A stretch of 52,809 nt of DNA, taken from positions 1 through 52,809 of the forward strand of contig JAETOE010000025.1 of assembly GCA_021771815.1 (NCBI GenBank), read 5' to 3'. The position numbers and the translations under genes are program-made. This DNA is from Roseburia hominis (GTDB lineage: Bacteria > Bacillota > Clostridia > Lachnospirales > Lachnospiraceae). Below are positions 5,447-52,809 of this stretch, piece by piece. The notes below the pieces were generated by a model. It saw only the letters and a list, made by a program, of their open reading frames with translations. It searched no databases and was not told where the DNA came from. Numbering within the stretch: position 1 is the stretch's first letter; every line of letters begins with the position of its first letter.

Positions 5447-6022
5447 ATGGCAAAAGTGAATGAACGCGGTGCGGGAAGGAAACGGGCGCTTAACGCGGAG
5501 AAGATTGCACAGATTGCGAAGCGGCATGAGGCGGGGGAGACGCTTACGGCGCTTGCCGCAGAGTACGGCATTTCCCGTCAGACCTTGTCGGGTTATCTGA
5601 ACCGCAGGGAAGAAGAACAGGAACAGATTTGCCGCACAATACGTAAATGGGCGGAACTTAATCGTAGATTTCGTGACGTCAATGTAGAGGAATATACGAT
5701 GCGGATGGATTTCATGTGCGGGGACGAGTGCTGTACCGAAATACTTGTGGACTTTGCAAGACAAAGAATTGCCGTGGAGAACCGGACGGACGATCTGATT
5801 CACCGTGCGTTCGGCATCAAGGCAAAGCCGACGTGGGAGGATTTCGAAGAATTTTTGGAAAGCCGCTGCTTTCCGCGGACGAGGGAGCATCTGCGTCTTG
5901 TATTGAAAGATCTCGGACTGGATTCTTACGATCCACTCGCTATTGTCGAGCGGACAAAGGGACGGATGGCGGAGGATATGCAGTGGATCGCGATTACCTA
6001 TTTCGATGCGGCGGCGAGATGA
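5447..6022 (+). CDS. HTH protein, partner of a HipA-like kinase
   Basis: 191 residues. The N-terminus (about 10-50) carries a Hin/resolvase-like helix-turn-helix (EKIAQIAKRHEAGETLTALA then YGISRQTLSGYL). The rest (residues about 80-190) is a conserved-looking alpha/beta region including a run with FEEFLESRCFPRTR, seen in proteins paired with HipA-family kinases in Firmicutes. It probably represses its own operon and may act as the antitoxin-like partner. ATG at 5447 follows GGGAGG. The kinase gene starts 88 bp downstream on the same strand. Confidence 0.6.
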   Translation: MAKVNERGAGRKRALNAEKIAQIAKRHEAGETLTALAAEYGISRQTLSGYLNRREEEQEQICRTIRKWAELNRRFRDVNVEEYTMRMDFMCGDECCTEILVDFARQRIAVENRTDDLIHRAFGIKAKPTWEDFEEFLESRCFPRTREHLRLVLKDLGLDSYDPLAIVERTKGRMAEDMQWIAITYFDAAAR

Positions 6023-6110
6023 GCCATGATGCCGGACAGTTCATGGCGGTGGGTTCAGGCAGCAGCGGAGAAGCATCTATGCAGAACAGATTGTGGAGGA
6101 GGTGCGGCAA

Positions 6111-7082: not shown

Positions 7083-7164
7083 TGGCCCAGGTTTTCGTAA
7101 ACTGTAGTCGAAAAGCGCGTATGGTCTGTTCAAAGTGTCGCCCCATAATTTGTGAAATGTGTGG

Positions 7165-8364: not shown

Positions 8365-8498
8365 ATCATTCCCCCATCCAAACTTATACTCTGCCGTAAA
8401 CCTTGAATCCTTTTCTATATATAGATTCATAAAAAAGAATGAGTATAGATTCATAGCAGTATTATAAAGCAATAAATTATACGATGTCAATAAAACAG

Positions 8499-8533
8499 AG
8501 TACAAAAACATAAAAAATAGTACAAATATAAAA
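8499..8533. promoter_or_regulatory. AGTACAAA direct repeats, candidate AraC operator
   Basis: Two direct copies of AGTACAAA followed by an A/T-rich run begin at 8499 and 8519, 20 bp apart, which places them on one helical face as AraC-family activators need. The 236-bp divergent region (8365-8600) is otherwise A/T-rich and holds no gene; no consensus -35/-10 pair was found. Confidence 0.4.
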
Positions 8534-8600
8534 TAAATCGCACGTTTGATGTTATAAAATGACTATATCAAATAAACAGAAACCATGTTGGAGGGTAAAG

Positions 8601-10883: not shown

Positions 10884-10901
10884 AGTAGGAGGAGAGAGAA
10901 A

Positions 10902-12302
10902 ATGGCAAAGAACAAAGAACTTGGTCTGGATTCCATGGGAGTCCCAAAATCCATGCGACTGACAGATTATCTTGGGGATGGTCTGGGACAGCTTCCGCTG
11001 AATATCATGAGCGGACTCGTAGGACAGCTTACTTACTTTTACACAGAGAAAGTCGGTCTTGCCGCCGCTATGGTGGCGACAATGCTTCTGGTAGCAAAAA
11101 TCGCGGATGCTTTTTCCGATCTGGCTATGGGGAAAATCATGGATGCAGGTCATTCACCGAAGGGGAAATGCCGTCCGTGGTTCTTAAGAATGGCAATACC
11201 GGCAGCGGTTATGATTGTGCTGCTGTTCACCGTTCCGAAGAGTGCAGGAAGCGGTTTCCAGATGGCATATGTACTGATTACGAATATTCTTATTACAGCA
11301 GTGATATATACAGCGGTTGCCATTCCCTACGGTGCATTAATGTCACTTCGCACAAAAAGCTCGGATGAGCGTGGCAAAATGGGCGTGTTCCGTGCGGCAT
11401 TCGGATATATTGCAGGTATGATAATCGCGATTCTGTTAATTCCGATTACAAACGCGCTGGGAGGAACACAGGCGGCATGGATTAAGGTTGCGGTTGTCTT
11501 TGGATTGATTTCTCTGCTTTCGTTACTGATCCTGTATAAGGTTTCAAAAGAAAATGCAGGCGGAGAGGCTGCTTCGAAGGAACAGGAGCAGGAGGATGAA
11601 GATGTATCTTTTGCAGAGGGGCTTAAAATTCTGTTCCACAATAAATACTGGGTCATCATGCTGTTCCTTCAACTTCTTATGAATATTTCTTATGGCCTCA
11701 GCGGTGCAGGCGGAACGTATTATTGCAAATACATACTCGGAAATGATAATATGGTAGCGCTTCTTGGTGCGGTAGGTCTGATTCCTACATTTCTGGGGTT
11801 TGCGCTTACCGGTCCCATGGCAGGAAAATTCGGTATGACGAAAACATGTATGATTTCCTGCGTTCTCGGTGCGGCAGCCTGTGTTGTCAGGGTATTCACT
11901 CCGTACAGTCTGGTTACCTGCCTGGTGGGCGGATGTTTTACGACCTTTGCAAATATTCCGCTGATGTGTTTGTTCGGGGCAATGGTAAATAACTGCGTGG
12001 AATACAACGAATGGAAATTCGAGAAACGGATTGTCGGCATGACGAACAGTGCAAATTCTTTCGGATGTAAAATCGGATCCGGAATCGGCGGTTCCCTGAT
12101 CGGATGGCTTCTTGCATGGGGCGGTTACAGTTCAGCGCTGGAAACTCAGCCGGGTACGGTAAATATCGCAATCTTTGCATTTTCCATTTATATTCCGCTG
12201 GCATTATTCGTAACGATGTTCATTCTGCTTATGAAAAATGACCTGGAAAAGAAATACCCGCAGATCGTGGCGGAAATCCAGGCAAGAAAAGAATCAAGAT
12301 AA
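10902..12302 (+). CDS. GPH-family sugar:cation symporter
   Basis: 466 residues with about 12 hydrophobic segments, a glycoside-pentoside-hexuronide:cation symporter of the major facilitator superfamily. Recognisable family features are the N-terminal LTDYLGDGLGQLP, the acidic/amide cluster KIADAFSDLAMGKIMD in helix 2-loop, and GKCRPWFLRM in the first cytoplasmic loop. It imports a glycoside with Na+ or H+. It begins 18 bp after the GH3 gene with a strong AGGAGGAG. Its position between GH3 and GH78 implies uptake of a rhamnose/glucose-containing glycoside for cytoplasmic hydrolysis. Confidence 0.92.
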   Translation: MAKNKELGLDSMGVPKSMRLTDYLGDGLGQLPLNIMSGLVGQLTYFYTEKVGLAAAMVATMLLVAKIADAFSDLAMGKIMDAGHSPKGKCRPWFLRMAIPAAVMIVLLFTVPKSAGSGFQMAYVLITNILITAVIYTAVAIPYGALMSLRTKSSDERGKMGVFRAAFGYIAGMIIAILLIPITNALGGTQAAWIKVAVVFGLISLLSLLILYKVSKENAGGEAASKEQEQEDEDVSFAEGLKILFHNKYWVIMLFLQLLMNISYGLSGAGGTYYCKYILGNDNMVALLGAVGLIPTFLGFALTGPMAGKFGMTKTCMISCVLGAAACVVRVFTPYSLVTCLVGGCFTTFANIPLMCLFGAMVNNCVEYNEWKFEKRIVGMTNSANSFGCKIGSGIGGSLIGWLLAWGGYSSALETQPGTVNIAIFAFSIYIPLALFVTMFILLMKNDLEKKYPQIVAEIQARKESR

Positions 12303-29599: not shown

Positions 29600-30220
29600 A
29601 TGAGAGTATTGGTGGTAGACGATGATAAACTGGTGGCAATTTCCCTCAAGACGATTCTGGAAGCGGATGAGCAGCTTGAGGTTGCCGGACTCGGCGAAAA
29701 CGGACGGGATGCGGTGCGGCTTTATCGGGAGCTTGCACCGGACGTCCTGCTGATGGATATCCGTATGGAGGAAATGAGCGGACTTGAAGCAGCAGAATGC
29801 ATCTTAAAGGAAGATAAAGCGGCAAAAATTTTGTTTCTTACAACATTTTCTGACGATGAATATATCGTAAGGGCGCTGAATATCGGAGCGAGGGGCTATC
29901 TGCTAAAGCAGGATTTTGAGGGAATCGTGCCCGCGGTCAAGGCGGTCGCCGGAGGGCAGAGCGTGTTCGGCGGAGAGGTCGCAGGGAAGCTTCCGGTGCT
30001 GCTTTCCGGGAGGAATGCCTTTTCCTACAGTGATTATGAGATCAGTGAGAAGGAGCAGAGAATCATTGAGCTGGTCGCAGAGGGTTTAAGCAACCGGGAG
30101 ATTGCAGGAAAGCTTTTTCTCGGCGAGGGAACGGTGCGCAACTACATCAGTGTTATTTTAGAAAAGCTTGGTTTAAGAGACAGGACGCAGCTTGCAGTCT
30201 TCTATTACAAGAACTGCTAA
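29600..30220 (+). CDS. response regulator, NarL/FixJ family
   Basis: 206 residues. Receiver domain with VLVVDDDKL acidic pocket, phospho-acceptor Asp in LLMDIRM (about 52) and the conserved Lys in YLLKQD; LuxR-type HTH at about 140-200 (KEQRIIELVAEGLSNREIA ... GTVRNYISVILEKL). ATG 29600 follows AGGAGG, 19 bp after the kinase stop. It probably binds the divergent promoter region and regulates the ABC exporter and flavodoxin-like genes. Confidence 0.94.
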   Translation: MRVLVVDDDKLVAISLKTILEADEQLEVAGLGENGRDAVRLYRELAPDVLLMDIRMEEMSGLEAAECILKEDKAAKILFLTTFSDDEYIVRALNIGARGYLLKQDFEGIVPAVKAVAGGQSVFGGEVAGKLPVLLSGRNAFSYSDYEISEKEQRIIELVAEGLSNREIAGKLFLGEGTVRNYISVILEKLGLRDRTQLAVFYYKNC

Positions 30221-30250
30221 AGCTGTGCGCTGTATTTTAAGGCAAAATGT

Positions 30251-30928
30251 CTATTGCTGCGCCAAGGCGGTATCCGTGCTCTGCGTCAGCGACCGTATTC
30301 CGGTCGTGATGATATCGTTGGCAACCTGCGCCATTTCTTCGGCGGATCTGTGCGGGGAGGAGAAGAGCCAACTCTCGATCAGACCGACGCAGCCGGAGGC
30401 GATAAAGCTGTAGAAATATTCGAATTGTGCAGTATCTGTTTTGTGATATACTTCCGTCCACATCGTAAAAAGCGGCTGACGGAAGAGATTTTTCATGCGC
30501 AGAGGGAAGGAAATATCCCCATTTTTGCCTAGCAATGCAGTGCAAAGCGGCGCATTTTCACCAGAAAGGCAGAAAATACCTTGGATTAGAGGAAAGGGAT
30601 CATACAACAATTTTTCCGGCGCATGGGTGGAAATCAGCGATTCGAATTTGGTCATGATTTCCAGTTCAAGCTGTTCTACCATGTCGTAAATATCTTTGTA
30701 GTGCAGGTAAAAAGTTCCGCGGTTGATGTCGGCGTCGTCGCACAGTTCTTTGACGCTGATGTCCTTGATGTTTTTTGTCCCGAGCAGGGAAATCAGTGCA
30801 TTGGTAAGCAGCGTTCTTGTACGGCGGACGCGTCGGTCGGGCTAGTCGGTCTTTCCCCGTGAGGACGAATTTTTATGGGAAGGTGTTTCTGCCTGGGAAA
30901 TGCCTTCCTTTTTTGGTGTTCTCTTCAT
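30251..30928 (-). pseudogene. TetR-family regulator with an in-frame amber stop
   Basis: Reading from ATG 30928 (AAGGAG 9 bp upstream), codon 29 is TAG (30844-30842), yet the same frame continues into a full TetR HTH (RRTRTLLTNALISLL, then KDISVKELCDDADINRGTFY LHYK) and a ligand domain ending at 30251. The DNA around the stop reads GACCGAC-TAGCC-CGACCGAC: removing nine bases would give a continuous KTDRRVRR junction typical of TetR proteins. A small in-frame duplication carrying TAG has thus interrupted the gene. Without read-through only an HTH-less fragment could be made (from the ATG at 30682). It is divergent from the MMPL transporter it presumably repressed, so that operon may now be unrepressed. 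Confidence 0.8.
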
Positions 30929-31018
30929 GGATGTGGGCTCCTTTATGAAAAAAATATAAAATAAACGACAAAACGACAAAAAATGTCAAGTATTCGACGG
31001 ATGCGTGGGATATGACAC

Positions 31019-31047
31019 TTGAGCATTTTTTTGGGATTTATTATAAT
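31019..31047 (+). promoter_or_regulatory. sigma-A promoter of the MMPL operon
   Basis: TTGAGC at 31019-31024, 17-bp spacer, TATAAT at 31042-31047. TCAAGT and ACTTGA half-sites flank about 30 bp just upstream and overlap the -35, a possible TetR-regulator site. Confidence 0.6.
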
Positions 31048-31097
31048 GAAGAAAAGTAAAAAAATCAACACACTGTTAAGAAATGAAAGGAAGACGG

Positions 31098-33611
31098 ATG
31101 GAAGAAAAGCAGGAAAAGAAGAAAGGCAATTTCTGGCTCAGTCTGGCAACATTTATCGTGGATAAGCGTAAAGCGATTGAAATTCTGTTTGTGGTTGCGA
31201 TTATTTACAGCGTGTTGTCAGTCAATAAAGTTGAGGTCAACCAGGATATCACATCGTATTTGCCGTTGGAAAGCGAGACGAGACGCGGTCTTACGGTCAT
31301 GGAGGACGAATTTGTCACCTACGGTTCTGCGAGAGTCATGGTGTCCAACATTACGTGGTCCGAGGCAGACGGACTCGTGGAACGGATTGAGAACGTCGAG
31401 GGAGTAAAGGCGGTCACTTTTGACAATACAAAGGATCACTATATCGGGGCGAATGCATTGTTTGACGTTACAGTCGACGGTGAGGATGAGGATTCGGTCA
31501 GTATCAGTGCAATCAAGGGAATCAAGCAGGAACTTTCCGACTATGATATCTATGTCTCGACAACGATCGGGTCCGTGGAGGAGAGCGCGGAAATGCTAAA
31601 CCGTGAAATGGGAGTTATTCTGGTGCTGGCGGTCGTTATCATCATCGGCGTTCTGCTGCTCTCGACCAAAGCATATCTGGAGATTCCGGTGCTGCTAATT
31701 ACATTTGGCGTGGCGGCGATTCTTAATATGGGAACAAATTACTGGCTCGGGGAGATTTCGTTTGTCACGAATTCGATCGCTGTCGTGCTTCAGCTTGCGC
31801 TTGCGATTGACTACGCAATTATTCTCTGTGACCGCTTTATGGAAGAGCATGAGACGTTAGAATCGGAGGATGCGGCAAAGGTTGCGCTCTCAAAGGCGAT
31901 TCCTGAGATCAGCGCGTCCTCGTTGACGACGATTTCCGGTATGGTCGCACTGATGCTGATGCAGTTTAAGCTGGGCTATGATATGGGTATCGTTCTGGTG
32001 AAAGCGATTTTGTTCAGCCTGATCTCCGTGTTCTTCCTGATGCCGGGCATTCTGCTTATATTTGCAAAAGGGATTGATAGGACGCACCATAAGTGCTATG
32101 TGCCGAAGATTACGTTTCTTGGTAAAATCGCGGCAAAGACGAAGTATATTATTCCGCCGATTTTTATTATAGTGCTTGTATTCGCATTCATTGCGCAGAG
32201 TAATTGTAAATATGTTTTTGACGTCAATTCGGTGGAGAGCGCGAAGAAAAGTGAGTCAAAAATTGCACAGGAGAAGATAGAGAGCGTATTCGGTGCAAGC
32301 AACCAGCTTGTTGTGATCGTGCCGTCGGGAGACTACGACAAGGAAGGGCGTGTTCTAAAACGATTGGAGGAGCTTCCATATGTGACGAGCGCACTCGGGC
32401 TGGCAAATCAGGAAATCAGTGATGACTATACGCTGACGGATAAGATTTCGCCGCGCCAGTTTGCGGAAATGACGGATCTCGATGTGGAGATTGTGCAGGT
32501 ACTGTATTCGGCATATGCCTACAACGAGGAGCAGTATGGCCCGGTCATCACGGGAATTGATGATTATGAGGTGCCGATCATTGATATGTTCCTGTTTTTG
32601 TATGATCAGTATCAGCAAGGTTATGTAAATTTGGACGACGATATGGACGAGATGCTTACCACACTCTATGATACGTTGCACGATGCGCAGCTCCAGCTTC
32701 AAGGGGAGAATTACAGCAGGTTTGTCCTAAGTATTGATAAACCGGGTGAGGGCGAGGAGACGTATGCCGCCATGGATGAGATACGGGGCATTGGCGAGCA
32801 GGTCTACGGAAAAGGCAACGTCATCCTTGCAGGAAACTCAACGAGCGCACACGATCTGGAGTCTACGTTCTCCACGGATAATACGATTATTAATGTGATG
32901 ACGGCGCTTTTTGTTATGATTATCCTTTTCTTTACCTTCCAGTCAGCAGGGCTTCCGGTGCTTTTAGTAATGACGATTGAGGGAAGTATCTGGATAAACT
33001 TTACAATCCCGGCGATTCAGGGACAGACGGTATACTTTATTGCTTATCTGATTGTGTCAGCCATCCAGATGGGTGCGACGATTGATTATGCAATCGTAAT
33101 TTCAAGCCGCTATATGCAGTTGAAAACCGAGATGCCGATTGAGAAGGCGATTGTGGAGGCACTAAACCAGTCTTTCCCGACGATTTTTACCTCCGGCTCT
33201 ATCATGACCAGTGCGGGCTTTCTGATCGGAAATATATCAACGGATGCGACGGTGTCCGCGATGGGAACTACGCTTGGAAGAGGAACATTGACCTCGATAG
33301 TGCTTGTATTGTGTGTGCTTCCACAGGTGTTGCTGCTGGGTGACTGGATTATTGAGAAGACAGCGTTTACGATGAATCTTGCGAGGGAGCAGAAGGATGT
33401 TGCAGGACGTGTGCGTATTACAGGACATGTGCGGGGCTATGTGCAGGGTGAGATTGACGCGGACGTACAGGGCGTCTTCCATGGACAGATGAAAGTTGCA
33501 GTAGACACGGTGATTCCCGGACGGCAGGGTCAGGTGACGCATGTGGATGAGCCTGCGATCGAGCAAAAAGAGATCATTGACGTGACAGAGAAGGGAGGTA
33601 CGCAGGCATGA
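31098..33611 (+). CDS. MMPL/RND-family transporter
   Basis: 837 residues, 12 membrane helices in two halves, each with one N-terminal helix, a large external domain and five helices. Proton-relay motifs are LAIDYAIILCDRFMEE (about residue 237) and ATIDYAIVISSRYMQL (about 658). Such transporters export lipids, siderophores or drugs, powered by protons. After the last helix a cytoplasmic tail (about 770-837) contains short Gly-spaced beta-like repeats (GRVRITGHVRGYVQGEI, then DADVQGVFHGQMKV) reminiscent of bactofilin strands. ATG 31098 has AAAGGA upstream; 31083 does not. It overlaps the next gene by 4 bp (ATGA), so the two are coupled. Confidence 0.9.
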   Translation: MEEKQEKKKGNFWLSLATFIVDKRKAIEILFVVAIIYSVLSVNKVEVNQDITSYLPLESETRRGLTVMEDEFVTYGSARVMVSNITWSEADGLVERIENVEGVKAVTFDNTKDHYIGANALFDVTVDGEDEDSVSISAIKGIKQELSDYDIYVSTTIGSVEESAEMLNREMGVILVLAVVIIIGVLLLSTKAYLEIPVLLITFGVAAILNMGTNYWLGEISFVTNSIAVVLQLALAIDYAIILCDRFMEEHETLESEDAAKVALSKAIPEISASSLTTISGMVALMLMQFKLGYDMGIVLVKAILFSLISVFFLMPGILLIFAKGIDRTHHKCYVPKITFLGKIAAKTKYIIPPIFIIVLVFAFIAQSNCKYVFDVNSVESAKKSESKIAQEKIESVFGASNQLVVIVPSGDYDKEGRVLKRLEELPYVTSALGLANQEISDDYTLTDKISPRQFAEMTDLDVEIVQVLYSAYAYNEEQYGPVITGIDDYEVPIIDMFLFLYDQYQQGYVNLDDDMDEMLTTLYDTLHDAQLQLQGENYSRFVLSIDKPGEGEETYAAMDEIRGIGEQVYGKGNVILAGNSTSAHDLESTFSTDNTIINVMTALFVMIILFFTFQSAGLPVLLVMTIEGSIWINFTIPAIQGQTVYFIAYLIVSAIQMGATIDYAIVISSRYMQLKTEMPIEKAIVEALNQSFPTIFTSGSIMTSAGFLIGNISTDATVSAMGTTLGRGTLTSIVLVLCVLPQVLLLGDWIIEKTAFTMNLAREQKDVAGRVRITGHVRGYVQGEIDADVQGVFHGQMKVAVDTVIPGRQGQVTHVDEPAIEQKEIIDVTEKGGTQA

Positions 33612-37383: not shown

Positions 37384-38172
37384 TTAGGCGAAGCGCGACA
37401 GCTCCGGCGTATCCGCCCAATAGCGTTTTGGTATCATCTGCATCTGCAGATGGGGGTTCGTCCGTGCTTCGATAGCGATATGATCGAAGAAGGTCAGCCA
37501 GAGATTGCGGAATTCCTGTTCATTTTCAGAATAGCGGTTCGCTTTTTCCAGATCAAGATCGGCTGCATCGGTCAGGATATAGCGCATCGACGCTTTATGG
37601 ACTGCAACTGTCTGGTGCGTCGCATCATAGATCATAAAGTTCTCGGTCGGGAGGCGGTCGGTAAAATGTTCTGCCAGGTAGGGCAGAACATTATCTTTTG
37701 GATGGATCGTGGCGAAGAGCACGCCGTTTTCCAACTCGCTAAAGCGCAGAAACTCGAGATGGTGGCAAGCTTCCCGGTTCGTTGCGCGGCACAGTTCAAA
37801 AATGCGGTAGACGCATGGTTCTCCAAGAGAGAGCAGCACCTTCTGCCCGTCGCCGCCTGCGAGCGCGAGGAGAATTGTCTCGTAGATGGCGTCCGCCTTG
37901 TCCATTTTTCCGGTAGCGCGAGCTTCTCCCGACATTGCCGCCTGATAGATGGATTCGTAGAACTGCATCCCAAAGCGGGAGGTAATCGTTCGAATGACCT
38001 TTTTCGTTTTTTCATCGGAGGGTGTGACATGGATATATTCGGAGAAAAGTTCATAGTTCTCCGGCTCTCCGGTAATCAGCCGGATATTCCGATGACCGAG
38101 CCTGCTTGCGCAGGCGTCGTAGACACCGCTGAAAATCCCTTCTAAATTGTCTTCGCATACAAATACATACAT
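37384..38172 (-). CDS. radical-SAM-associated DNA repair protein (TIGR03915-type)
   Basis: 262 residues. It matches the family that always accompanies the TIGR03916 radical-SAM protein (DUF4130-like): N-terminal MYVFVCEDNLEGIFSG, middle RFGMQFYESIYQAAMS, LFATIHPKDNVLPYLAEHF, and a C-terminal WLTFFDHIAIEARTN and KRYWADTPEL. ATG 38172 follows AGAGGT. It is the second gene of the unit, 97 bp after its partner. A role in DNA modification or repair is assigned to the pair by family annotation only. Confidence 0.85.
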   Translation of the reverse strand: MYVFVCEDNLEGIFSGVYDACASRLGHRNIRLITGEPENYELFSEYIHVTPSDEKTKKVIRTITSRFGMQFYESIYQAAMSGEARATGKMDKADAIYETILLALAGGDGQKVLLSLGEPCVYRIFELCRATNREACHHLEFLRFSELENGVLFATIHPKDNVLPYLAEHFTDRLPTENFMIYDATHQTVAVHKASMRYILTDAADLDLEKANRYSENEQEFRNLWLTFFDHIAIEARTNPHLQMQMIPKRYWADTPELSRFA

Positions 38173-38269
38173 GGTGATACCTCTTTTCTGTAAATTCACT
38201 GTGCCGGCATACTGCTTTAGAATAGAGCGGCTGCTCATGTAAGCGTTCAGAATGCCGGAGAGAAAACCT

Positions 38270-39622
38270 TTAGTGTGAAAATGTGCTTATCTCGTCTGCG
38301 ATTATCTTCGGCTGCTCCACCGCACCGCTGTCCGCCATTCCGCAATCGAACAGGGAGAGCTGTTTGTAGCCACCGTTTCGGATATCTTTTGGAATCTGCG
38401 TCCGGTCTGCCATGAGATTCTCACAGATATAATTCTCTTCAAGCTTTGTATTGTACATCATCCTGCCGGAGCAGGTGATGAAATAAAGCGCACGTTTTAG
38501 GACGACGCCGATTTTCTTTAAATCGGAAAAATCAAGCGTTGTATTTCGCCGCGCCTTAACGATACGGTCGGCAGACTTATACCCTATACCCGGTACGCGC
38601 AGTAGAGTGTGATAGCTTGCGCGGTTGATCTCGACGGGGAAGTATTCGAGATGGCGCAGCGCCCAGTCGCACTTCGGGTCGAGATAGATGTTGAAATTCG
38701 GGCGGTCGTCCGATAGAAGTTCACTCACCGTGAAATCATAGTAGCGCAGCAGCCAGTCCGCCTGATAGAGCCTGTGCTCACGCAGCAGGGGCGGACCGCC
38801 GGGGAGCATGGGAAGGTTCGAATTCTGATTCACGTTGATGAACGCCGAATAGAAGACGCGCTTTAGGTCAAAATTCTGATAGAGCGCTTCGGAGACCTGC
38901 ATGATCTGATAATCACTCTCCGGCGTAGCGCCGATGATCATCTGCGTACTCTGCCCGGCAGGAACGAACTTCGGCGCCTTGCGGTAGAGGACAAGTTCGT
39001 TCTTATTCTCGGCGATGCCGTTCTGGATCTGACGCATCGGCTTTAAGATGGTATTTCTTGATTTATAAGGCGCAAGCTTCTTCAACCCGTCCGAAGTGGG
39101 CAGTTCGAGATTGATGCTCATACGGTCGGCGAGGTAGCCTGCCTTCTCGATGAGAGCAGGGTCTGCGCCGGGAATCGCTTTGACGTGGATGTAGCCGTTA
39201 AAATGATGTATGTTGCGCAGCTTATAGAGTGTCTGGTAAATGAGATCCATTGTGTAGTTCGGACTTATCAGAATACCGGAGCTTAAGAACAGTCCCTCGA
39301 TGTAGTTCCTGCGGTAGAACTCCATGGTGAGCGTACAGACCTCATCCGGAGTGAAGGAGGCGCGGGGAACATCGGAGTTGCAGTTGTTCTGGCAGTAAGC
39401 GCAGTTGAAGATGCACTCGTTCGTAAAGAGAATCTTGAGCAGGGAAACACATCGCCCATCCGCGGCGAAGGAATGGCAGAGCCCGGCAGCAAGGCAGTTC
39501 CCAAGACTCATGCCGTCTCCGCCCCGATCTACGCCGCTTGAAGTGCAGGCGACGTCGTACTTGGCTGCATCGGTGAGAATCGCGAGCTTTTCCATAAGGG
39601 ACATATTCTGTTGGATGTTCAT
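38270..39622 (-). CDS. putative DNA modification/repair radical SAM protein
   Basis: 450 residues. The radical-SAM cluster motif CIFNCAYC (CxxxCxxC, about residues 69-76) binds a 4Fe-4S cluster and S-adenosylmethionine; additional NNC follows. A helix-hairpin-helix DNA-binding motif (LLRVPGIGYKSADRIV, about 345-360) supports a DNA substrate. Family TIGR03916. Its promoter contains a LexA-type box between -35 and -10 and a second box just downstream, so it is very likely induced by DNA damage. Forms a unit with the gene at 37384-38172. Confidence 0.92.
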   Translation of the reverse strand: MNIQQNMSLMEKLAILTDAAKYDVACTSSGVDRGGDGMSLGNCLAAGLCHSFAADGRCVSLLKILFTNECIFNCAYCQNNCNSDVPRASFTPDEVCTLTMEFYRRNYIEGLFLSSGILISPNYTMDLIYQTLYKLRNIHHFNGYIHVKAIPGADPALIEKAGYLADRMSINLELPTSDGLKKLAPYKSRNTILKPMRQIQNGIAENKNELVLYRKAPKFVPAGQSTQMIIGATPESDYQIMQVSEALYQNFDLKRVFYSAFINVNQNSNLPMLPGGPPLLREHRLYQADWLLRYYDFTVSELLSDDRPNFNIYLDPKCDWALRHLEYFPVEINRASYHTLLRVPGIGYKSADRIVKARRNTTLDFSDLKKIGVVLKRALYFITCSGRMMYNTKLEENYICENLMADRTQIPKDIRNGGYKQLSLFDCGMADSGAVEQPKIIADEISTFSH

Positions 39623-45736: not shown

Positions 45737-47356
45737 ATGGAATTTGGGGAATATAGCGGGGCGGTCAATGCGTGGGTCAATGAGGTGCTGCGCAACCGCG
45801 GTGTAAATGCAGAGCTTACGCTCAAATACTGCCGCGATATCGAACAATACGCGGAAAAAACAGACGATCCGAAGCTGATGGGCTTTGCTTATTACTACAG
45901 CGGAGAGACTTATTACATTTTAAATGATGCAGGAGGTCTTTTCCGCTGTATTACAAAAGCGATCAGCTATCTCGACCAGGCGAAGCAGTGGGACATGGTC
46001 GCGCGTTCCTATAATATCATGGCGATTACCTCGCAGAGCAGAGGGAATGCGCTGATCGCGATGGATTATTATCTCACCGGGCTTGGTTATTGCAGAAAGT
46101 ACCGGCTCTATGCGGAAGAAAATATTATCAATCTGAATCTGGGATCGCTTTATCTGGTGAACGGACAGTGGTCGGAAGCACAGAAGTATTTCGAGAAATT
46201 GGCATATTATGTGCGGGATGAAAAGACGACAGAGAATTATTACAGCTTGATGAGCTGTGTCGCGGTCAGTCTTGGCAGGTGCTTTTTGCAGAGGGAGCAG
46301 TTCGAGCGGGCGCAGCAGAAGATCGAGTGTCTCGATCAATGTATGGGGCGTCTGGAAAAGCCGGAACAGATCGCGGTGCTCTGCTTTAAGACAGAATTTT
46401 ATCATCGGGCGGGGCGTGTGACGCTGCGCGATGAGTGCATCCATAAGATTCACGGAATGATGGATATGGACATGGCAGTCATGGATCTCTTTGAGGATAT
46501 CTATGGGCTGTGTGAACTGCTGTTGGAGATTGATAATGAGAATGTATTCTGGGACATCATAGATATTCTGGAGAAATTGACCAAGAATGCCAATATTGTA
46601 AACTTACAGCGGAGAATTATTTCTCTGAAAATCAACTATTACAGACGCCACGACGACGAGGAAAGTTATCTGGCGCTGGCGGGGACATATTACGAACTGA
46701 CAGAGGCTATGGAGCGCGAGAACCATTATATGGTGGCGAATATGCTCGCGGTTCGAAGTTCTCTGGAGCAGGCGAATGCGAAGCGTCGTGAGATTGAGAA
46801 GGCGAATGAACAGCTTCTTGAAAAGTCGGAGACAGACCCGCTTACACATCTGGCGAACCGTTTTCGCTTAAACGACTACTCGGAGCAGACATTTGAGGAG
46901 GCGTTGGCGGCGGAGGAGCCGTTTGCAGTCGAAATCCTGGATATTGATTATTTCAAGGAATATAATGATAACTACGGGCATCAGGCGGGCGACGTCTGTA
47001 TTTTGGCAATTGCAGAGGAATTGCAGAAGATGCAGGGGGAGCGGATTTTCTGCGCGCGGTACGGCGGCGATGAGTTCATTATCATTTATAAGCAGATGAC
47101 GGAGGAAGAGGTATTTGCAGAGGCGGGAGGGCTTCGCGAACGCATTCTTGCACGGCGGATTACGCACGCATATTCTAAAGCGCTTCCGGTCGTCACGATT
47201 TCACAGGGGATTTGCTGGGACATTCCCGGGGAAGAAAACCGGAGTTGGGATTTTCTGCATGCGGCGGATGCGATGCTTTACCGTGTGAAAAAACGCAGCC
47301 GCAACAATATTTCCATGGGGCGTCTGGATGGATATGAAACGAAAAGCGGGGATTAG
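45737..47356 (+). CDS. TPR-GGDEF diguanylate cyclase
   Basis: 539 residues, no membrane segment. Residues about 1-330 form helical TPR-like repeats (SYNIMAITSQSRGNALIAMDYYLTGL, LGSLYLVNGQWSEAQKYFEKL), a coiled stretch, then a GGDEF domain (about 360-530) with an intact RYGGDEF active site (about 441-447) and the DPLTHLANR start. The usual inhibitory RxxD site before GGDEF is absent. It makes cyclic di-GMP, which commonly shifts cells from swimming to surface growth, relevant next to the flagellin. The TPR part probably senses a protein or peptide partner. ATG 45737 follows AAGGAGG. Confidence 0.9.
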   Translation: MEFGEYSGAVNAWVNEVLRNRGVNAELTLKYCRDIEQYAEKTDDPKLMGFAYYYSGETYYILNDAGGLFRCITKAISYLDQAKQWDMVARSYNIMAITSQSRGNALIAMDYYLTGLGYCRKYRLYAEENIINLNLGSLYLVNGQWSEAQKYFEKLAYYVRDEKTTENYYSLMSCVAVSLGRCFLQREQFERAQQKIECLDQCMGRLEKPEQIAVLCFKTEFYHRAGRVTLRDECIHKIHGMMDMDMAVMDLFEDIYGLCELLLEIDNENVFWDIIDILEKLTKNANIVNLQRRIISLKINYYRRHDDEESYLALAGTYYELTEAMERENHYMVANMLAVRSSLEQANAKRREIEKANEQLLEKSETDPLTHLANRFRLNDYSEQTFEEALAAEEPFAVEILDIDYFKEYNDNYGHQAGDVCILAIAEELQKMQGERIFCARYGGDEFIIIYKQMTEEEVFAEAGGLRERILARRITHAYSKALPVVTISQGICWDIPGEENRSWDFLHAADAMLYRVKKRSRNNISMGRLDGYETKSGD

Positions 47357-47611: not shown

Positions 47612-47649
47612 TCAAAATACTGCGCACACGCGCGGTGGAAAGGAAACAG

Positions 47650-49242
47650 ATGGAGACAGTTAGATTTGATGAATTAGAGTTATATCCCCAGGTGCTGCGG
47701 GCAATTGCGGAGATGGGGTTTGAGGAGGCGACGCCGATCCAGAGTCAGGCGATTCCGGTCGTGATGTCGGGTGTGGATGTGATCGGACAGGCACAGACCG
47801 GAACGGGAAAGACGGCGTCCTTTGGTATTCCGGTGCTGCATAAGGTCGATCCGGGAAGTAAAAAGACGCAGGTCATTATTCTCTCTCCGACGAGAGAACT
47901 TGCCATTCAGGTGGCGGACGAGATCCGCAAGCTGGCGAAGTACCTGCACGGCGTCAAGGTGCTTCCGGTGTACGGCGGACAGGAAATCGGCAGACAGATC
48001 AAGGCGCTCAAAGGCGGCGCACAGATCATCGTGGGAACGCCGGGGCGTGTGATGGATCATCTTCGCAGGAAGACGATCCGCTGTGAAGCGGTTCACACCG
48101 TTGTGCTCGATGAAGCGGACGAGATGCTCAATATGGGATTCCGCGATGATATCGAGACAATCTTAGAATATATTCCGGCCGAGGGACGTCAGACCGTGCT
48201 ATTTTCGGCGACGATGCCAAAGCCTATCTTAGAGATTACCAAGAAGTATCAGCATGATGCGGTCACGATCAAGGTGGTCAAGAAGGAACTGACTGTACCG
48301 AGCATCGAGCAGTACTACTATGATGTGAAGCGCAGCGATAAGGTTGAGGTTCTGACAAGGCTCCTGGATTACTATAACCCGAAGCTCTCGCTTGTGTTCT
48401 GTAATACAAAGCGCATGGTGGATGAGCTTGCCGAGGATTTGAAGGGACGGGGCTATTTTGCGGAAGGGCTGCACGGCGATATGAAGCAGACGCAGCGTGA
48501 CCGTGTGATGAAGGGCTTCCGTACCGGAAAGACCGAAATTCTGATTGCTACCGACGTTGCGGCGCGCGGAATCGACGTCGACGACGTTGAGGCGGTGTTC
48601 AATTACGATATTCCGCAGGACGACGAGTACTATGTACACCGTATCGGAAGAACGGGGCGCGCCGGAAGGACAGGACGAGCCTTTACCTTTGTGAAGGGCA
48701 AGGAAGTCTATAAGCTTAAGGACATTATGCGCTACTGTAAGACCAAGATCGTAGCAATGCCGATTCCGTCCACCGACGATGTGGCACAGATCAAGGCAGA
48801 GAAGGTCATGGACGAGATCGGAAGGATTATCGACGAGGAGAATCTTAAGGATATGATCGACATCATCGAGTGTCAGGTCAACGCTTCAGATTACACCGCG
48901 ATGGATATTGCCGCGGCATTTTTGAAGCAAGCGCTTGGACAGGTCAATCTGGACAGCGATGACGACGGTGAATACGACTTTGACAACACCGGTGCGGAGG
49001 AGGGAATGGTACGTCTCTTCATCAATATCGGTAAGAAAGACCGCGTCAAGCCGGGCGACATTTTAGGTGCCATTGCCGGAGAGTCCGGTATGCCGGGCAA
49101 ACTGGTCGGCGCGATTGATATGTATGATAAGTATACGTTTGTGGAGGTTCCGAGAGAGTACGGAAGAGAGGTGCTCGAGGGCATGAAGAACGCACGCATC
49201 AAAGGGCGTTCTGTCAGCATGGAACCAGCAAATCAAAAGTAA
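47650..49242 (+). CDS. DEAD-box RNA helicase, CsdA/CshA type with DbpA-like RNA-binding domain
   Basis: 530 residues. Q-motif and motif I AQTGTGKT (about 43-50), Ia PTRELAIQ, II DEAD (about 152), III SAT, IV-VI LVFCNT, ATDVAARGIDV, HRIGRTGRAG. The C-terminus (about 450-528) is a DbpA-like RNA-binding fold (VRLFINIGKKDRVKPGDILGAI). It unwinds RNA, with roles in ribosome assembly and RNA decay at low temperature. ATG 47650 has AAAGGAAA; an in-frame GTG at 47635 would include that ribosome-binding site and is less likely. Confidence 0.93.
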   Translation: METVRFDELELYPQVLRAIAEMGFEEATPIQSQAIPVVMSGVDVIGQAQTGTGKTASFGIPVLHKVDPGSKKTQVIILSPTRELAIQVADEIRKLAKYLHGVKVLPVYGGQEIGRQIKALKGGAQIIVGTPGRVMDHLRRKTIRCEAVHTVVLDEADEMLNMGFRDDIETILEYIPAEGRQTVLFSATMPKPILEITKKYQHDAVTIKVVKKELTVPSIEQYYYDVKRSDKVEVLTRLLDYYNPKLSLVFCNTKRMVDELAEDLKGRGYFAEGLHGDMKQTQRDRVMKGFRTGKTEILIATDVAARGIDVDDVEAVFNYDIPQDDEYYVHRIGRTGRAGRTGRAFTFVKGKEVYKLKDIMRYCKTKIVAMPIPSTDDVAQIKAEKVMDEIGRIIDEENLKDMIDIIECQVNASDYTAMDIAAAFLKQALGQVNLDSDDDGEYDFDNTGAEEGMVRLFINIGKKDRVKPGDILGAIAGESGMPGKLVGAIDMYDKYTFVEVPREYGREVLEGMKNARIKGRSVSMEPANQK

Positions 49243-49412: not shown

Positions 49413-50360
49413 GTGGAGCAGAATACACTTGGAGTCGTATTGTCATATTATAGGGAGAAATATGGATTTTCTTTGGAGGCGTTGTCGGGCGGGATATGCT
49501 CGACGACGACTTTATCACGCGTAGAGGCGGGTTCGCGGGAAATAGATTCGCTCATGGCGGAGGCGCTGCTCGGTCGTGTGGGAAAAGAGGTCACACAGTT
49601 TGAATTGCTGCTAAACGATGAGGATTATGCTATGTGGCAGAAGAGAGAGAGCATCCATGCGGCCTTAAAGGAGAAAAGGTACGATGAAGTGCTCGAGGGA
49701 GTCTGTCAATACGAGAATATACTGACGGAGGAGCAGTCTTTGCACTGGCAAAGATGTCTGGCATGGAGAGTGCAGTTGGTAGAGGCGCAGGGAGTCAGCA
49801 GGGAGAAAATCATCCGTCTTGCATCGGATGCGCTGGCATATACCATATCGAATATAGATTCAGGGATGGCAGGGCAGTTATATAATCCTTTGGAAATCAG
49901 GCTGATTCTGGTTCTTGCGCGCCACAATTATTTCTCTGCGGTTGAGAAAGTCGAGGATCGGCTGCTTCGCCTGGTTGGATATGTGGAAACGTATTATTCA
50001 GGAAGAATGAAGGAGACACTCGGAATAGAAATTCTTTTGACACTGATTGAATTGATGGAGCAAAATGGTGAGGATGATAAGGTTATCAGTTATGTAGACC
50101 AGGCTGTCGCGCTGATTGCAAAAGGGAGAGGGATCCGTCATGTAGCGAAGCTTCATTATATAAAGGCGCGGGCAATCGAACGGCTCTATTGTGGAAGTGC
50201 AAACTGGGAGGAACAGGAGCGATGCTGCCGAGAAGAGTGTGCTATGGCATACTATGTGGCGGAGATTATGGGAGAGAAGGAATTGATGGAAGAGATTACG
50301 GCGCATTGCAAGGAGAAATTATCATGGCAAATTACAGAGCAGGCGATGTTATTCGATTGA
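49413..50360 (+). CDS. XRE-family regulator with TPR-like domain (RRNPP type), first copy
   Basis: 315 residues, GTG start at 49413 with GAGGGA upstream. N-terminal HTH (about 7-60; LSYYREKYGFSLEALSGGI, STTTLSRVEAG) followed by ~250 residues of all-helical TPR-like sequence (LLLNDEDYAMWQKRESIHAALKEK... ). This is the build of Rgg/Rap/PlcR-like cytoplasmic receptors that bind a short imported peptide. The C-terminal 37 bp overlap the start of a second such gene. No cognate peptide is known; a candidate lies 1 kb downstream. Confidence 0.8.
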   Translation: MEQNTLGVVLSYYREKYGFSLEALSGGICSTTTLSRVEAGSREIDSLMAEALLGRVGKEVTQFELLLNDEDYAMWQKRESIHAALKEKRYDEVLEGVCQYENILTEEQSLHWQRCLAWRVQLVEAQGVSREKIIRLASDALAYTISNIDSGMAGQLYNPLEIRLILVLARHNYFSAVEKVEDRLLRLVGYVETYYSGRMKETLGIEILLTLIELMEQNGEDDKVISYVDQAVALIAKGRGIRHVAKLHYIKARAIERLYCGSANWEEQERCCREECAMAYYVAEIMGEKELMEEITAHCKEKLSWQITEQAMLFD

Positions 50361-51274
50361 CAAGACAGGCGGTCGGTATGACGCAGGAGACACTTTGCGA
50401 AAATATATGCTCGGTGGAGACGCTATCGAGGATAGAAAACGGAAAGCATAAAGTAAAAAGAGAGACGTATCGCCGCCTTATGGAGCGGATGGAGAGAATA
50501 CCGGAGAAGAACTATGCAATCTGTACCGGGAAGCATATGGAACTTCTGGAGGAAAAAGCCGATTTCGAGGATGCGGTTAGCAAATATGATTATGAAAAGG
50601 CTGAGATATGCTTACAGAGATTAAAGCGAAAGATTGGGGATGGTGTCTTAAATGAGCAGTATATTGCAAAGGCAGAAGCATTTGTATGTTATGATAATAA
50701 GCATATTGATGCGGACCAGATGATTTTCCGGTTGGAAGAGGCGATTCGGATGACGATTCCGGAGTATGAACAGTATCTGGATAAGGAATATCCATATACA
50801 GAGCAGGAAGTGCTGACACTGATGAATCTTGCAGGAGCGTATCGCGTGAAAAAGCGGTATGAAGACGGAATAAGAATATACCGCGCATTGCTTAAGTCTT
50901 TGCATTTGGGATATATGACAGAACGTGACAGCGTAATTCTGGAAATTAAGGTGATGCGGAATATGGCGCTTATATTTGGTGAGATGGATCGATATGAAGA
51001 GTCGAATGAGCTGTTGGAAAAGGTGATACGGCTCTCAAAGGAAATGGATTACGGGCAGATACTTTCAACAGCGCTCAGCCAGATTACATGGAACATGATG
51101 CACCAGATTGAGAATGGCGAACGGGATATGTCAGATATTGTACGTGTAAAAGCATATACGCGGCAGGCATATTATATTGCTGCCGCGCGGGATGATTATA
51201 TCCATGCTACGAAAATAAGAAAGTATTATGAAAATAAGTTTGAGGAAACTATTGAATTAAAGTCTCACATCTGA
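50324..51274 (+). CDS. XRE-family regulator with TPR-like domain (RRNPP type), second copy
   Basis: 316 residues. ATG 50324 (AGGAG 8 bp upstream) overlaps the first regulator by 37 bp. HTH at about 6-60 (VIRLTRQAVGMTQETLCENI, SVETLSRIENGKHKV), which shares the ICS-x-x-TLSR-(V/I)-E-x-G pattern with the first regulator, so the two are probably diverged duplicates. The rest is TPR-like helices (LMNLAGAYRVKKRYEDGIRIYRALLKSL). It is followed by a convergent small peptide gene and then the Cys-rich peptide gene. Likely ligand: a short peptide. Which of the two activates and which represses is unknown. Confidence 0.8.
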   Translation: MANYRAGDVIRLTRQAVGMTQETLCENICSVETLSRIENGKHKVKRETYRRLMERMERIPEKNYAICTGKHMELLEEKADFEDAVSKYDYEKAEICLQRLKRKIGDGVLNEQYIAKAEAFVCYDNKHIDADQMIFRLEEAIRMTIPEYEQYLDKEYPYTEQEVLTLMNLAGAYRVKKRYEDGIRIYRALLKSLHLGYMTERDSVILEIKVMRNMALIFGEMDRYEESNELLEKVIRLSKEMDYGQILSTALSQITWNMMHQIENGERDMSDIVRVKAYTRQAYYIAAARDDYIHATKIRKYYENKFEETIELKSHI

Positions 51275-51406
51275 AAGATAGAACTCGTCGCTAAGCGGAG
51301 CAATGCCGCTATTGCCCGGCAGTCTAAAATTTAAGTTCGTCAGTAAGGCGCAGACAAGGCAGAGTGTAAGGGTTAAATTCTTTAGTACTTTAAAAATTTT
51401 TTTCAT
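51257..51406 (-). CDS. candidate signalling-peptide precursor
   Basis: A 49-residue ORF convergent with the second regulator and overlapping its 3' end by 18 bp. ATG 51406 has GGAGGT 11 bp upstream. Sequence starts with a classic Sec/TM-like segment (MKKIFKVLKNLTLTLCLVCA), then NLNFRLPGNSGIAPLSD and a short C-terminal EFYLSDVRL. Exported precursors of RRNPP pheromones have this layout (signal segment, then a short hydrophobic active C-terminus), and SHP genes in streptococci also lie beside their Rgg gene on the opposite strand. Short and not otherwise supported; it could be chance. Nothing else is seen in the 51275-51460 region. Confidence 0.5.
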   Translation of the reverse strand: MKKIFKVLKNLTLTLCLVCALLTNLNFRLPGNSGIAPLSDEFYLSDVRL

Positions 51407-51461
51407 AAGTTAATTATACCTCCATAAGATTTTCGAATGTATTGTAGCAGAGATGGAGAAG

Positions 51462-51516
51462 AAAGACCATGTCAAAACTGGAAAAATTGCTTTTCCGGTT
51501 TTGATATGGTCTTTTC
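51462..51516. terminator. long hairpin, terminator of the regulator genes
   Basis: Arms of about 22 bp with two mismatches: AAAGACCAT-TCAAAAC-GGAAAA (51462-51485) and TTTTCC-GTTTTGA-ATGGTCTTT (51491-51514), with T-rich ends on both strands. It separates the regulators from the peptide gene and could work in both directions. TATAAT boxes follow at 51529-51534 and 51537-51542 with no good -35, fitting an activator-dependent promoter for the peptide. Confidence 0.75.
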
Positions 51517-51562
51517 TATGCGAAGAAGTATAATAATATAATAAAATTGTATTGGAGACCTT

Positions 51563-51742
51563 ATGAAGACAATTAGCGATTTGATTTGGGATATGGAGAA
51601 TGATGAGAAGAAAATTGAGAATACAGGGGGGATAAATACATGTAGTGTACATGGGATAGAGCAGGAAATTTCAATGTATGCATGTTGTGGGCTTGGTGGA
51701 GGATGGGGGTGGTCTGTTTCCTGCGGTAAACATAACTATTAA
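51563..51742 (+). CDS. Cys/Gly/Trp-rich peptide with double-glycine leader (bacteriocin or RiPP precursor candidate)
   Basis: 59 residues, ATG 51563 with GGAG 6 bp upstream, stop TAA at 51740. The leader MKTISDLIWDMENDEKKIENTGG is acidic and ends in GG (residues 22-23), the processing site of C39-peptidase exporters. The 36-residue core starts INTCSVHG and ends with ACCGLGGGWGWSVSCGKHNY: four Cys (27, 41, 42, 54 of the whole), seven Gly and two Trp. This fits a class II bacteriocin with disulfides, a thioether RiPP or a modified peptide; I cannot name a family. It follows two peptide-type regulators and precedes a membrane hydrolase. No modification enzyme or transporter lies within the window. 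Confidence 0.65.
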   Translation: MKTISDLIWDMENDEKKIENTGGINTCSVHGIEQEISMYACCGLGGGWGWSVSCGKHNY

Positions 51743-51809
51743 AAAATTTTATAATTAGAGTAGAAGTGACAACGTGATTAATTAAGAACAATCGTTTGGG
51801 GGAAGATGT

Positions 51810-52736
51810 ATGTATAAAAAGAGATGGCAATGTGTTTTTGTTTTTTTCCTGGGTTGCCTATTGATGTGTAATACATATGTATTCGAACAATCTTTGGATT
51901 TGAATCAAATTTTCGAGGAGTGGGAGAATGGAATTACACTTGAGGAAATTAGTATTAATGAGACATATCTTAAAAAGATGGAGCAGGATTGCAATAATCT
52001 AAGGCAGAAATATCTTCAATATGCGGATAATCCAGAGAACAAAACAGAATTGTTGCCGAGCGACCAGATAAAAAACTACAGATTTTTTTATGAGAGTGAC
52101 GGAGAAATAGTAGAGGGCTATATTTCGCTTCCAAATGATTATATGGAGAAAGAATATCCGGTACTTATTTTTAACCGCGGAGGTAATACAGATTTTTCGA
52201 TGTCTTCACCAGAAGAGTTTTGCTATTATGCCAGATATGGATTTATATCGCTGGGTACAGAATATCGTGGTAGTGCGAACAGTACCGGTGTAGATGAATT
52301 CGGAGGTGCAGACGTGAACGATGTAATACGTGTCGTTGATTTTGCAGAAATTATGAGATTTAGTAACGGGAAGATTTATATGTTTGGTTGGTCACGTGGA
52401 GCGATGGAAACATATATAGTACTAAAACAGGATAGTCGAATTGATGCAGCAGTCGTAGGTGCGGGTCCGACAGATATGCTTCAGTATTTTAAAGAAGAAC
52501 AGGAGATGCGACCGGATATGGCGCTTCTTCTTGGGATGTTGATCGGTAATCCTGCTTATAATAAGGAAGCCTATGAGGAGCGTTCTGCACTTTGTTTTGC
52601 AGAGCAGATTGATACACCGCTTTATATTGTGCACGGAACAGAGGATGAACGTGTTCCATTCCATAATTCGGAAGAATTTTATGAGAGGATGAAGGTGTTA
52701 GACGGCACATTGTGGGAGGGGCAAACCGCACTTTGA
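51810..52736 (+). CDS. membrane-anchored alpha/beta hydrolase, S9-peptidase-like, C-terminally truncated
   Basis: 308 residues as read. N-terminal signal anchor (about 7-24, VFVFFLGCLLMCN), then an alpha/beta-hydrolase fold of the prolyl-oligopeptidase (S9) type: VLIFNRGGNTDF, nucleophile elbow GWSRGAM (Ser about residue 198), TDMLQYF, and IVHGTEDERVPF with the catalytic Asp (about 275). In S9 enzymes the catalytic His follows ~30 residues later; here the frame becomes unrelated after ERMKVLDG and stops at 52736 without it. The missing His suggests truncation by insertion/recombination near 52700, or an assembly join. ATG 51810 has GGGGGA. Together with the peptide gene, a leader- or peptide-processing role is plausible but unproven. 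Confidence 0.65.
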   Translation: MYKKRWQCVFVFFLGCLLMCNTYVFEQSLDLNQIFEEWENGITLEEISINETYLKKMEQDCNNLRQKYLQYADNPENKTELLPSDQIKNYRFFYESDGEIVEGYISLPNDYMEKEYPVLIFNRGGNTDFSMSSPEEFCYYARYGFISLGTEYRGSANSTGVDEFGGADVNDVIRVVDFAEIMRFSNGKIYMFGWSRGAMETYIVLKQDSRIDAAVVGAGPTDMLQYFKEEQEMRPDMALLLGMLIGNPAYNKEAYEERSALCFAEQIDTPLYIVHGTEDERVPFHNSEEFYERMKVLDGTLWEGQTAL

Positions 52737-52809
52737 TTTCGGCAATAACATCTCTCCGATCGTGCGGTATCGGCACTTGCTGCAGACTCTCATCGGGATG
52801 ACCGTAGAT
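52704..52809 (+). other. foreign-looking end segment, open in another frame
   Basis: After the hydrolase match ends, the +1 frame is open from about 52706 to the window edge and reads GKPHFDFGNNISPIVRYRH and onward, unlike the hydrolase. This may be the start of an inserted gene or a rejoined fragment. I cannot identify it from 30 residues. Confidence 0.35.

Follow-up and report, generated by a model that had tools for sequence, protein, structure and literature searches.

A probable peptide-signalling switch with two sister receptor genes in Roseburia hominis

Peptide quorum sensing has been worked out mainly in bacilli and streptococci, and its textbook form has one receptor per signal. Why would a pheromone receptor keep a twin that lacks the residue used to hold the peptide? 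The question is raised by a locus near the end of contig JAETOE010000025.1 of Roseburia hominis, a stretch of 52,809 nucleotides that was analysed as a whole and is called the window here. Judged from its sequence, this locus is a probable cell-to-cell peptide signalling switch. Its two sister receptor genes, regA and regB, stand beside a probable peptide signal gene; downstream lie a palindrome, a small open reading frame (ORF) called pep59 and a serine hydrolase gene. The reading that we favour, with a probability of about 0.7, is a quorum-sensing circuit like that of PlcR and PapR, with a two-subunit receptor whose subunits divide the labour, a shared palindrome and positive feedback. An earlier note on this DNA had already pointed to a circuit of this kind, and that suggestion is now well supported by the fold match of the receptors to PlcR, by a propeptide conserved in kind and by a likely shared operator.

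Paired receptors and their probable peptide gene

The genes for receptor A (regA, 49413–50360, forward strand, 315 amino acids) and receptor B (regB, 50324–51274, forward strand, 316 amino acids from an ATG start) overlap by 37 bp (50324–50360), and both products contain helix-turn-helix (HTH) and TPR regions. The structure models of the two receptors were confident (predicted local distance difference test, pLDDT, 89.4 and 88.8), and for both of them the best PDB match found by Foldseek was PlcR with PapR7 and DNA, with ComR and Rgg2 among the further matches for both and PrgX among those for A. Profiles built from the relatives of each receptor matched PlcR with E values of 1.3e-15 (profile B) and 0.023 (profile A). 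At its N-terminus regB exceeded the Pfam cut-offs for HTH_31 and HTH_3; regA reached 20 bits for HTH_3 against a cut-off of 23 and remained below the HTH cut-offs, yet its modelled helices were the same as those of regB. The TPR_12 score of regB, 29.1 bits, was just below the cut-off of 30.1. Models and sequence together indicate that both proteins have the features of PlcR-like RRNPP receptors, namely a predicted N-terminal HTH, a predicted C-terminal TPR superhelix and an adjacent gene for a predicted secreted propeptide, in agreement with the two overlapping RRNPP-type regulators of the earlier note.

That note had called duplicate receptors unusual; they proved instead to be a conserved feature. 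When 62 genomes of the genus were searched with the two profiles, profile B matched 32 genomes at E 1e-9 and profile A 31 at E 1e-6 (a few short profile matches and genome G076 were excluded from the loci fetched). Pairs of an A gene and a downstream B gene occurred at 13 loci in 11 of the 62 genomes. The overlap between the two genes spans 14 to 58 bp at 11 of these loci and is absent at L027 and L070 (B start from the profile); B was a fragment at L068 and was cut by the contig end at L027. A further 24 proteins of the genus, about 500–660 residues long, contained two receptor units in one chain, the three shortest being cut by contig ends; A and B are thus fused into one protein of about 600–660 residues in many relatives. 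In a tree of 89 receptor units from one FastTree run, all 13 A units fell, with 18 of 24 fused N-halves, into one pure clade (support 0.969), and in the tree as drawn 11 pair-B units and 18 fused C-halves grouped with three single receptors. Descent from a pair was rejected for the other six fusions (L031, L035 and L083–L086), whose halves group side by side and which look like an independent doubling.

The two receptors differ at one position in particular. Asn213 of regB aligns with Asn201 of PlcR, which we take to be a peptide contact, and with Asn227 of RapF. The latter is the RRNPP residue that contacts the peptide backbone (PMC3601957). Within the genus, nearly all pair-B units (10/11), about half of the single receptors (9/17) and a third of the fused C-halves (8/24) have this conserved Asn, as opposed to none of the pair-A units (0/13) or fused N-halves (0/24); regA itself lacks it. 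We also took 20 loci outside the genus from the top of the receptor match list, passing over G116:C18 and G247:C45, which have in-frame stops, and G455:C3. At 18 of these (five tandem pairs and 14 fused proteins; L111, where the two receptors are in reverse order, and L124 were left out), the Asn occurred in none of 19 first genes or N-halves and in 8 of 19 second genes or C-halves (pairs 2/5, fused 6/14). Overall, then, it was found in 0 of 56 A-type and 26 of 54 B-type units. Its absence from all A-type units examined suggests that A is a partner without the usual means of sensing peptide.

A gene for a predicted secreted propeptide of 49 residues (51257–51406, reverse strand) runs towards regB and shares its last 18 bp with the end of that gene; residues 34–46 of the propeptide, GIAPLSDEFYLSD, are the predicted pheromone region (51269–51307, reverse strand). 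The earlier note had drawn attention to this signal-peptide-like gene, and the comparison with relatives bears it out. Propeptides were scored by a hydrophobic stretch, a basic N-terminus, a start codon and a ribosome site in a convergent gene ending near the receptor stop, so that secretion was judged by a hydrophobicity rule rather than by SignalP; receptors with less than 260 bp downstream, L068 and one L039 fragment were excluded. Such genes lay behind 33 of 49 receptors in the genus (pairs 8/11, fusions 16/21, singles 9/17) versus 11 of 228 control genes taken from these loci, and the propeptide stop fell within −45 to +5 of the receptor stop for 29 of the 49 receptors versus 1 of the 228 control genes. 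Outside the genus a propeptide was found at 15 of the 20 loci, the misses being L111, L116, L121, L123 and L124. Across related loci the propeptides are about 34–73 residues long. In two public variants of the window's propeptide (P0110 and P0111) the spacer is changed and GIAPLSDEFYLSD unchanged. The tail motif [IV]x[PTS][LCYF], which was picked after viewing the data and in some cases matches outside the presumed core, was present in 29 of 46 propeptides (shuffles: mean 4.7, maximum 15) and in 9 of the last 15 of that set, those from outside the genus; near-duplicates L087 and L088 and the doubtful L071 and L095 were not in the set. The propeptide of a fused receptor in another genus (L128) contains GIAPLSD, identical to the core of the predicted pheromone, so that cross-talk between genera is possible. 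Conservation of the propeptide in kind appears well supported by these comparisons, and the locus belongs to a recurring layout of receptor, propeptide gene and probable operator.

The same genome carries a second system of this receptor family on contig C51 (L028, about 30200–31117). It has a single receptor, a convergent propeptide that ends GIAPCHYFEDAKDAW and its own palindrome, and by eye it lies ahead of glycosyltransferase-like genes; its kin are L036, L037, L039 and L087–L090.

A palindrome between two predicted divergent promoters

Between the propeptide gene and pep59 is a 53-bp palindrome (51462–51514), which the earlier note had missed. It contains the half-sites ACCATGTCAAAACTGGAAAA (51466–51485, forward strand), with an outer ACCAT and an inner GGAAA box, and ACCATATCAAAACCGGAAAA (51491–51510, reverse strand). 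On one side of it is a −10 box for the propeptide promoter (TACAAT, 51441–51446, reverse strand) and on the other a −10 box for the pep59 promoter (TATAAT, 51529–51534, forward strand), and the −35 positions of both promoters fall inside the outer arms of the palindrome. An inverted repeat was judged convincing by eye in 27 of 52 receptor rows; these palindromes sit roughly 65–370 bp past the receptor stop, with the propeptide start on one side and the next operon on the other. A TATAAT-like box (at least 5 of 6 positions) was present 37–48 bp from the palindrome centre in 17 of the 27 on the propeptide side and 19 of the 27 on the operon side; 2000 shuffles gave a mean of 5.0 and a maximum of 13 for the former, and 4.6 and 12 for the latter. 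With −10 boxes on both flanks and −35 positions in the outer arms, the palindrome is consistent with an operator shared by two divergent promoters, one for the propeptide gene and one for the pep59-hydrolase operon, and this is its likely role. An Rfam scan of the window gave nothing at gathering scores, so no Rfam family explains the palindrome; no second copy of a half-site was found in the same genome with up to three mismatches.

The half-sites of pair loci typically read ACCATGTCARAANNGGAAAA, with a deviating outer box in L022 and L025. We compared the inner box, GGAAA or NGAAAA, at 28 loci chosen by eye (nine of the 13 pair loci, eight single and 11 fused). It was present in all 18 half-sites at the nine pair loci, in none of 16 at the eight single-receptor loci, in 195 of 2550 random 16-mers from nearby and, outside the genus, in 8 of 10 pair half-sites.

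Several observations weigh against the favoured circuit. The single-receptor loci are close kin, so that their 16 half-sites without the inner box are not 16 independent facts. The box was found in just 14 of 22 chosen half-sites at the eleven fused loci of the genus and in 6 of 28 fused half-sites outside it. These fused loci weaken the notion that an inner GGAAA box is the mark of all A-type receptors; the box seems to go with paired receptors and to be no strict mark of A, and its scarcity at fused loci means that the assignment of GGAAA to A may be wrong. The 27 palindromes themselves were hand-picked from the 52 rows, one pair locus (L071) has no palindrome, and palindromes flanked by A and T resemble bidirectional terminators. 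As to the sensing residue, the Asn is missing from 16 of 24 fused C-halves within the genus, and outside it from 8 of 14 fused C-halves and from 3 of 5 second genes of pairs. Finally, pair loci L021 and L026 have no propeptide that passes the filter, that of L025 scores below threshold, and that of L023 lies 157 bp from the receptor.

Genes behind the palindrome

The pep59 gene (51563–51742, forward strand) encodes a Cys/Gly/Trp-rich peptide of 59 residues containing CCGLGGGWGWSVSCG and is preceded by the −10 box and a GGAG site. The earlier note took it for a peptide with a double-glycine leader. The ORF exists, but the Gly-Gly is not conserved: it is Gly-Arg in the commonest variant (P0001, 97% identical, a cluster on 88 contigs) and is kept in P0002 and P0003, both of which lose the Cys-rich end. 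On the sequences compared, pep59 would thus lack the conserved Gly-Gly before the core that a double-glycine-leader bacteriocin should have. P0002 diverges exactly at a Gly/Trp run, where the DNA is a G-rich tract; slippage or a sequencing error could explain this. Only near-identical copies of pep59 were found in searches that included 299 genomes of the family; matches among the latter look like noise (best non-self E 4.4e-4, inside a 519-amino-acid frame), and viral contigs had no pep59. Conservation of the small ORFs in relatives, the check that the earlier note had set, holds for the convergent propeptide and was not seen for pep59 in these searches. Nevertheless, pep59 occupies the place where the precursor genes of relatives stand, and small Cys-containing ORFs are in a similar position at L025, L026, L067, L069 and L070.

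The hydrolase gene (51810–52695, forward strand) encodes an alpha/beta serine hydrolase (Peptidase_S9, E 1.2e-19) with, by eye, a hydrophobic N-terminus. The serine hydrolase that the earlier note described as membrane-anchored is thus present, but its end at 52736 was wrong: the sequence from 52696 is the end of a repeat common to nine contig ends of the assembly, the reading frame runs into it, and the last 13 residues of the apparent ORF are therefore not its own. Contig C52 carries the other 34 hydrolase residues next to the TGAAGG duplication that also stands at 52690–52695, indicating that an insertion sequence split the gene. The ends of this insertion-sequence-like element are at 52696–52809 (forward strand) and at L105 12291–12177; one of its ends is the one common to nine contig ends, and the element breaks the assembly at many places. 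An intact copy of the hydrolase exists elsewhere (P0004, 329 residues, 98% identical), and homologues were found in two other genomes of the 62 in the genus and two others of 397 in the family; at two homologue loci (L065 and L066) there was no adjacent receptor pair, and no pep59-like ORF was noticed.

The downstream contig C52 did not reveal a modification enzyme. Past the hydrolase end C52 carries genes for a degraded FtsX-type permease, a response regulator, histidine kinases, a VanW-like protein, a major facilitator superfamily (MFS) protein and an acetyltransferase; the permease, of the ATP-binding cassette (ABC) type, is a remnant with a disrupted frame directly after the hydrolase end (L105 10784–12046), and a response regulator and a histidine kinase follow it. 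When the window's 37 main ORFs and eight ORFs of the 12-kb C52 were scanned with Pfam, neither a C39 exporter nor a lanthipeptide enzyme was detected, nor was there a peptide-modifying radical S-adenosylmethionine (SAM) enzyme among them, so that the search for such enzymes past 52.8 kb, as the earlier note had proposed, came back empty on C52. The lone radical SAM protein seen in the window is of a DNA-repair type (38273–39622, 10 kb upstream). DUF4135, found in LanM-type synthetases, had no match in the same genome, but control genomes were equally silent.

In several relatives, by contrast with the scanned window and C52 ORFs, a coupling to a modified peptide, also suggested in the earlier note, fits radical SAM enzymes and transporters, and the gene set behind the operator looks built for small modified peptides. 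Pair loci L067 and L070 encode a radical SAM/SPASM enzyme (PapB/SCIFF-like, below cut-off), a 48–49-residue peptide with a GGxGAxLxCxCxN-like end and an ABC-transporter-like protein, which was Pfam-scanned via its L026 counterpart; the two candidate precursors end LAGGGGALLVCMCNN and LAGGAGAILWCACVN, respectively. Among the other pair loci, L026 has a peptide and a transporter, and L021 encodes an ABC transporter and an MFS protein along with a radical SAM fragment. At a further pair locus, L069, three radical SAM enzymes belong to what resembles a cluster for a ribosomally synthesized and post-translationally modified peptide, or RiPP (about 5720–11530), together with a 329-residue protein with HExxH (by eye) and a 206-residue protein that matches nothing in Pfam; in front of the cluster lies a candidate precursor that contains Cys and is at most 70 residues long. 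The fused locus L034 encodes both an ABC transporter and a radical SAM enzyme, and the radical SAM match at L081 is weak (E 2.8e-6, below cut-off). The NCBIfam names nearest to six scanned enzymes (PapB, CefB, geopeptide and related maturases) were all below cut-offs. L022 and L071 depart from this pattern, and several fused and single loci precede, by eye, other genes.

Upstream of regA in the window are genes for a TPR-GGDEF diguanylate cyclase (45737–47356) and a DEAD-box RNA helicase (47635–49242); farther away, at 37387–39622, are paired putative DNA-repair proteins (TIGR03915 and radical SAM TIGR03916) with no relation to the signalling locus. A scan of genome contigs returned one locus, and phage and plasmid collections contained no similar DNA at the sensitivity of the searches.

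Proposed circuit, alternatives and known systems

We propose that the 49-residue propeptide is exported, cut to a short peptide around GIAPLSDEF and re-imported, and that, by analogy with known systems, the imported peptide would be bound by receptor B. B is cast as the sensor because of the Asn asymmetry. Since the A and B genes overlap and A-B fusions exist, the two proteins would act jointly on the 53-bp palindrome, probably as A2B2; since the half-sites are bipartite, four HTH domains would sit on one site, with the outer ACCAT boxes read by one receptor type and the inner GGAAA boxes by the other. Because the −35 positions of both promoters lie under the palindrome, the signal may switch on its own gene, giving positive feedback, together with the pep59-hydrolase operon. 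Activation is preferred to derepression because, in the window, the −10 boxes of the promoters are good and a −35 box is not evident; the sign could still be the opposite, TprA2, which also has a peptide gene on the opposite strand, being a repressor (PMC5436883). The peptide pep59 is probably the secreted product, and the hydrolase probably a surface enzyme that acts on it or serves self-protection. A stronger form of this proposal, that the receptor is an obligate hetero-oligomer in which A has lost peptide sensing and binds DNA while B senses, that pair or fused chain reads the bipartite palindrome with four HTH domains, and that such receptors are a general controller of modified-peptide production in Lachnospiraceae overlooked by length-filtered surveys, is put forward tentatively and is somewhat more doubtful than not.

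The same genes could be read in other ways. Streptococcal Rgg2 and Rgg3 share operators and have opposite effects, and A and B might likewise be separate receptors, each with its own ligand, that vie for the operator as activator and repressor; the confident models show HTH and TPR regions in both, and A, without the usual Asn, could have a different ligand, perhaps some other molecule or even a fragment of pep59. We consider this unlikely, as the two genes overlap at 11 of 13 pair loci and fusions of an A-like N-half with a B-like C-half point to a joint unit. That the palindrome is a bidirectional terminator or insulator rather than an operator would account for the A-runs and T-runs at the two ends of many palindromes; it is highly improbable, for the palindrome is upstream of both genes, −10 boxes lie within a narrow range of distances outside both arms, and the arm sequence, beyond mere pairing, recurs in other genera.

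A rather unlikely alternative concerns the output: pep59 might be non-functional, or might serve as a small regulator or as a second signal, in which case the circuit would act on the hydrolase or, in this strain, no longer on anything. The lack of a homologue above noise in the 299 family genomes, of a linked modification enzyme or C39 exporter among the scanned ORFs and of the Cys-rich end in P0002 and P0003 would agree with this, as would the interrupted hydrolase. Set against it are the placement of pep59 behind a −10 box and a GGAG site, its 97% identity in P0001 on 88 contigs and the similarly placed Cys-containing ORFs at the five related loci.

Much of this has counterparts: RRNPP receptors, opposite-strand peptide genes and the link to RiPP operons are already known. 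In the Bacillus cereus group, papR is a small propeptide gene next to plcR, as the propeptide gene is next to regB here, and PlcR, an HTH-TPR receptor, is the best fold match. The pheromone cores are also alike, Pro-hydrophobic-acidic-Phe, PapR7 being ADLPFEF (PMC6568020) and the peptide here IAPLSDEF. PlcR-PapR differs in having one receptor, whereas the present locus has two, a convergent propeptide gene and a 53-bp bipartite operator that apparently serves divergent promoters. Rgg-SHP systems use short hydrophobic signals and single Rgg receptors, in contrast to the secreted propeptides of about 34–73 residues and the A+B or A-B receptors described here. Streptococcal Rgg-SHP pheromone systems control a radical-SAM peptide (PMC8092268, PMC13361665), as the loci of several relatives may do. 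In the TprA2/PhrA2-lcpAMT system of Streptococcus pneumoniae, phrA2 is on the strand opposite to tprA2, as the propeptide gene is to regB here, and the system controls a neighbouring modified-peptide operon; it differs in its repressor, in its class II lanthipeptide enzyme and C39 transporter and in that the available text describes no paired or fused receptor (PMC5436883).

RRNPP_detector, which searches for candidate receptors with adjacent secreted propeptides, linked such systems to 196 biosynthetic clusters (PMC10075063). Its default receptor length of 250–500 amino acids (PMC10075063) means that the fused form of 600–660 residues would be missed, and the family list given for the 196 clusters, in the available text, does not name Lachnospiraceae. 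In the openly licensed literature, as far as its text was available and including PMC10075063, PMC12700828 and PMC9765709, we found no report of paired or fused RRNPP receptors or of RRNPP-linked clusters in Lachnospiraceae. If the proposal is right, a two-receptor or fused form of the pheromone receptor would be at work across many genera of the Lachnospiraceae, and its guessable pheromones (GIxPLxDE-like) and operators would give a handle on silent modified-peptide clusters.

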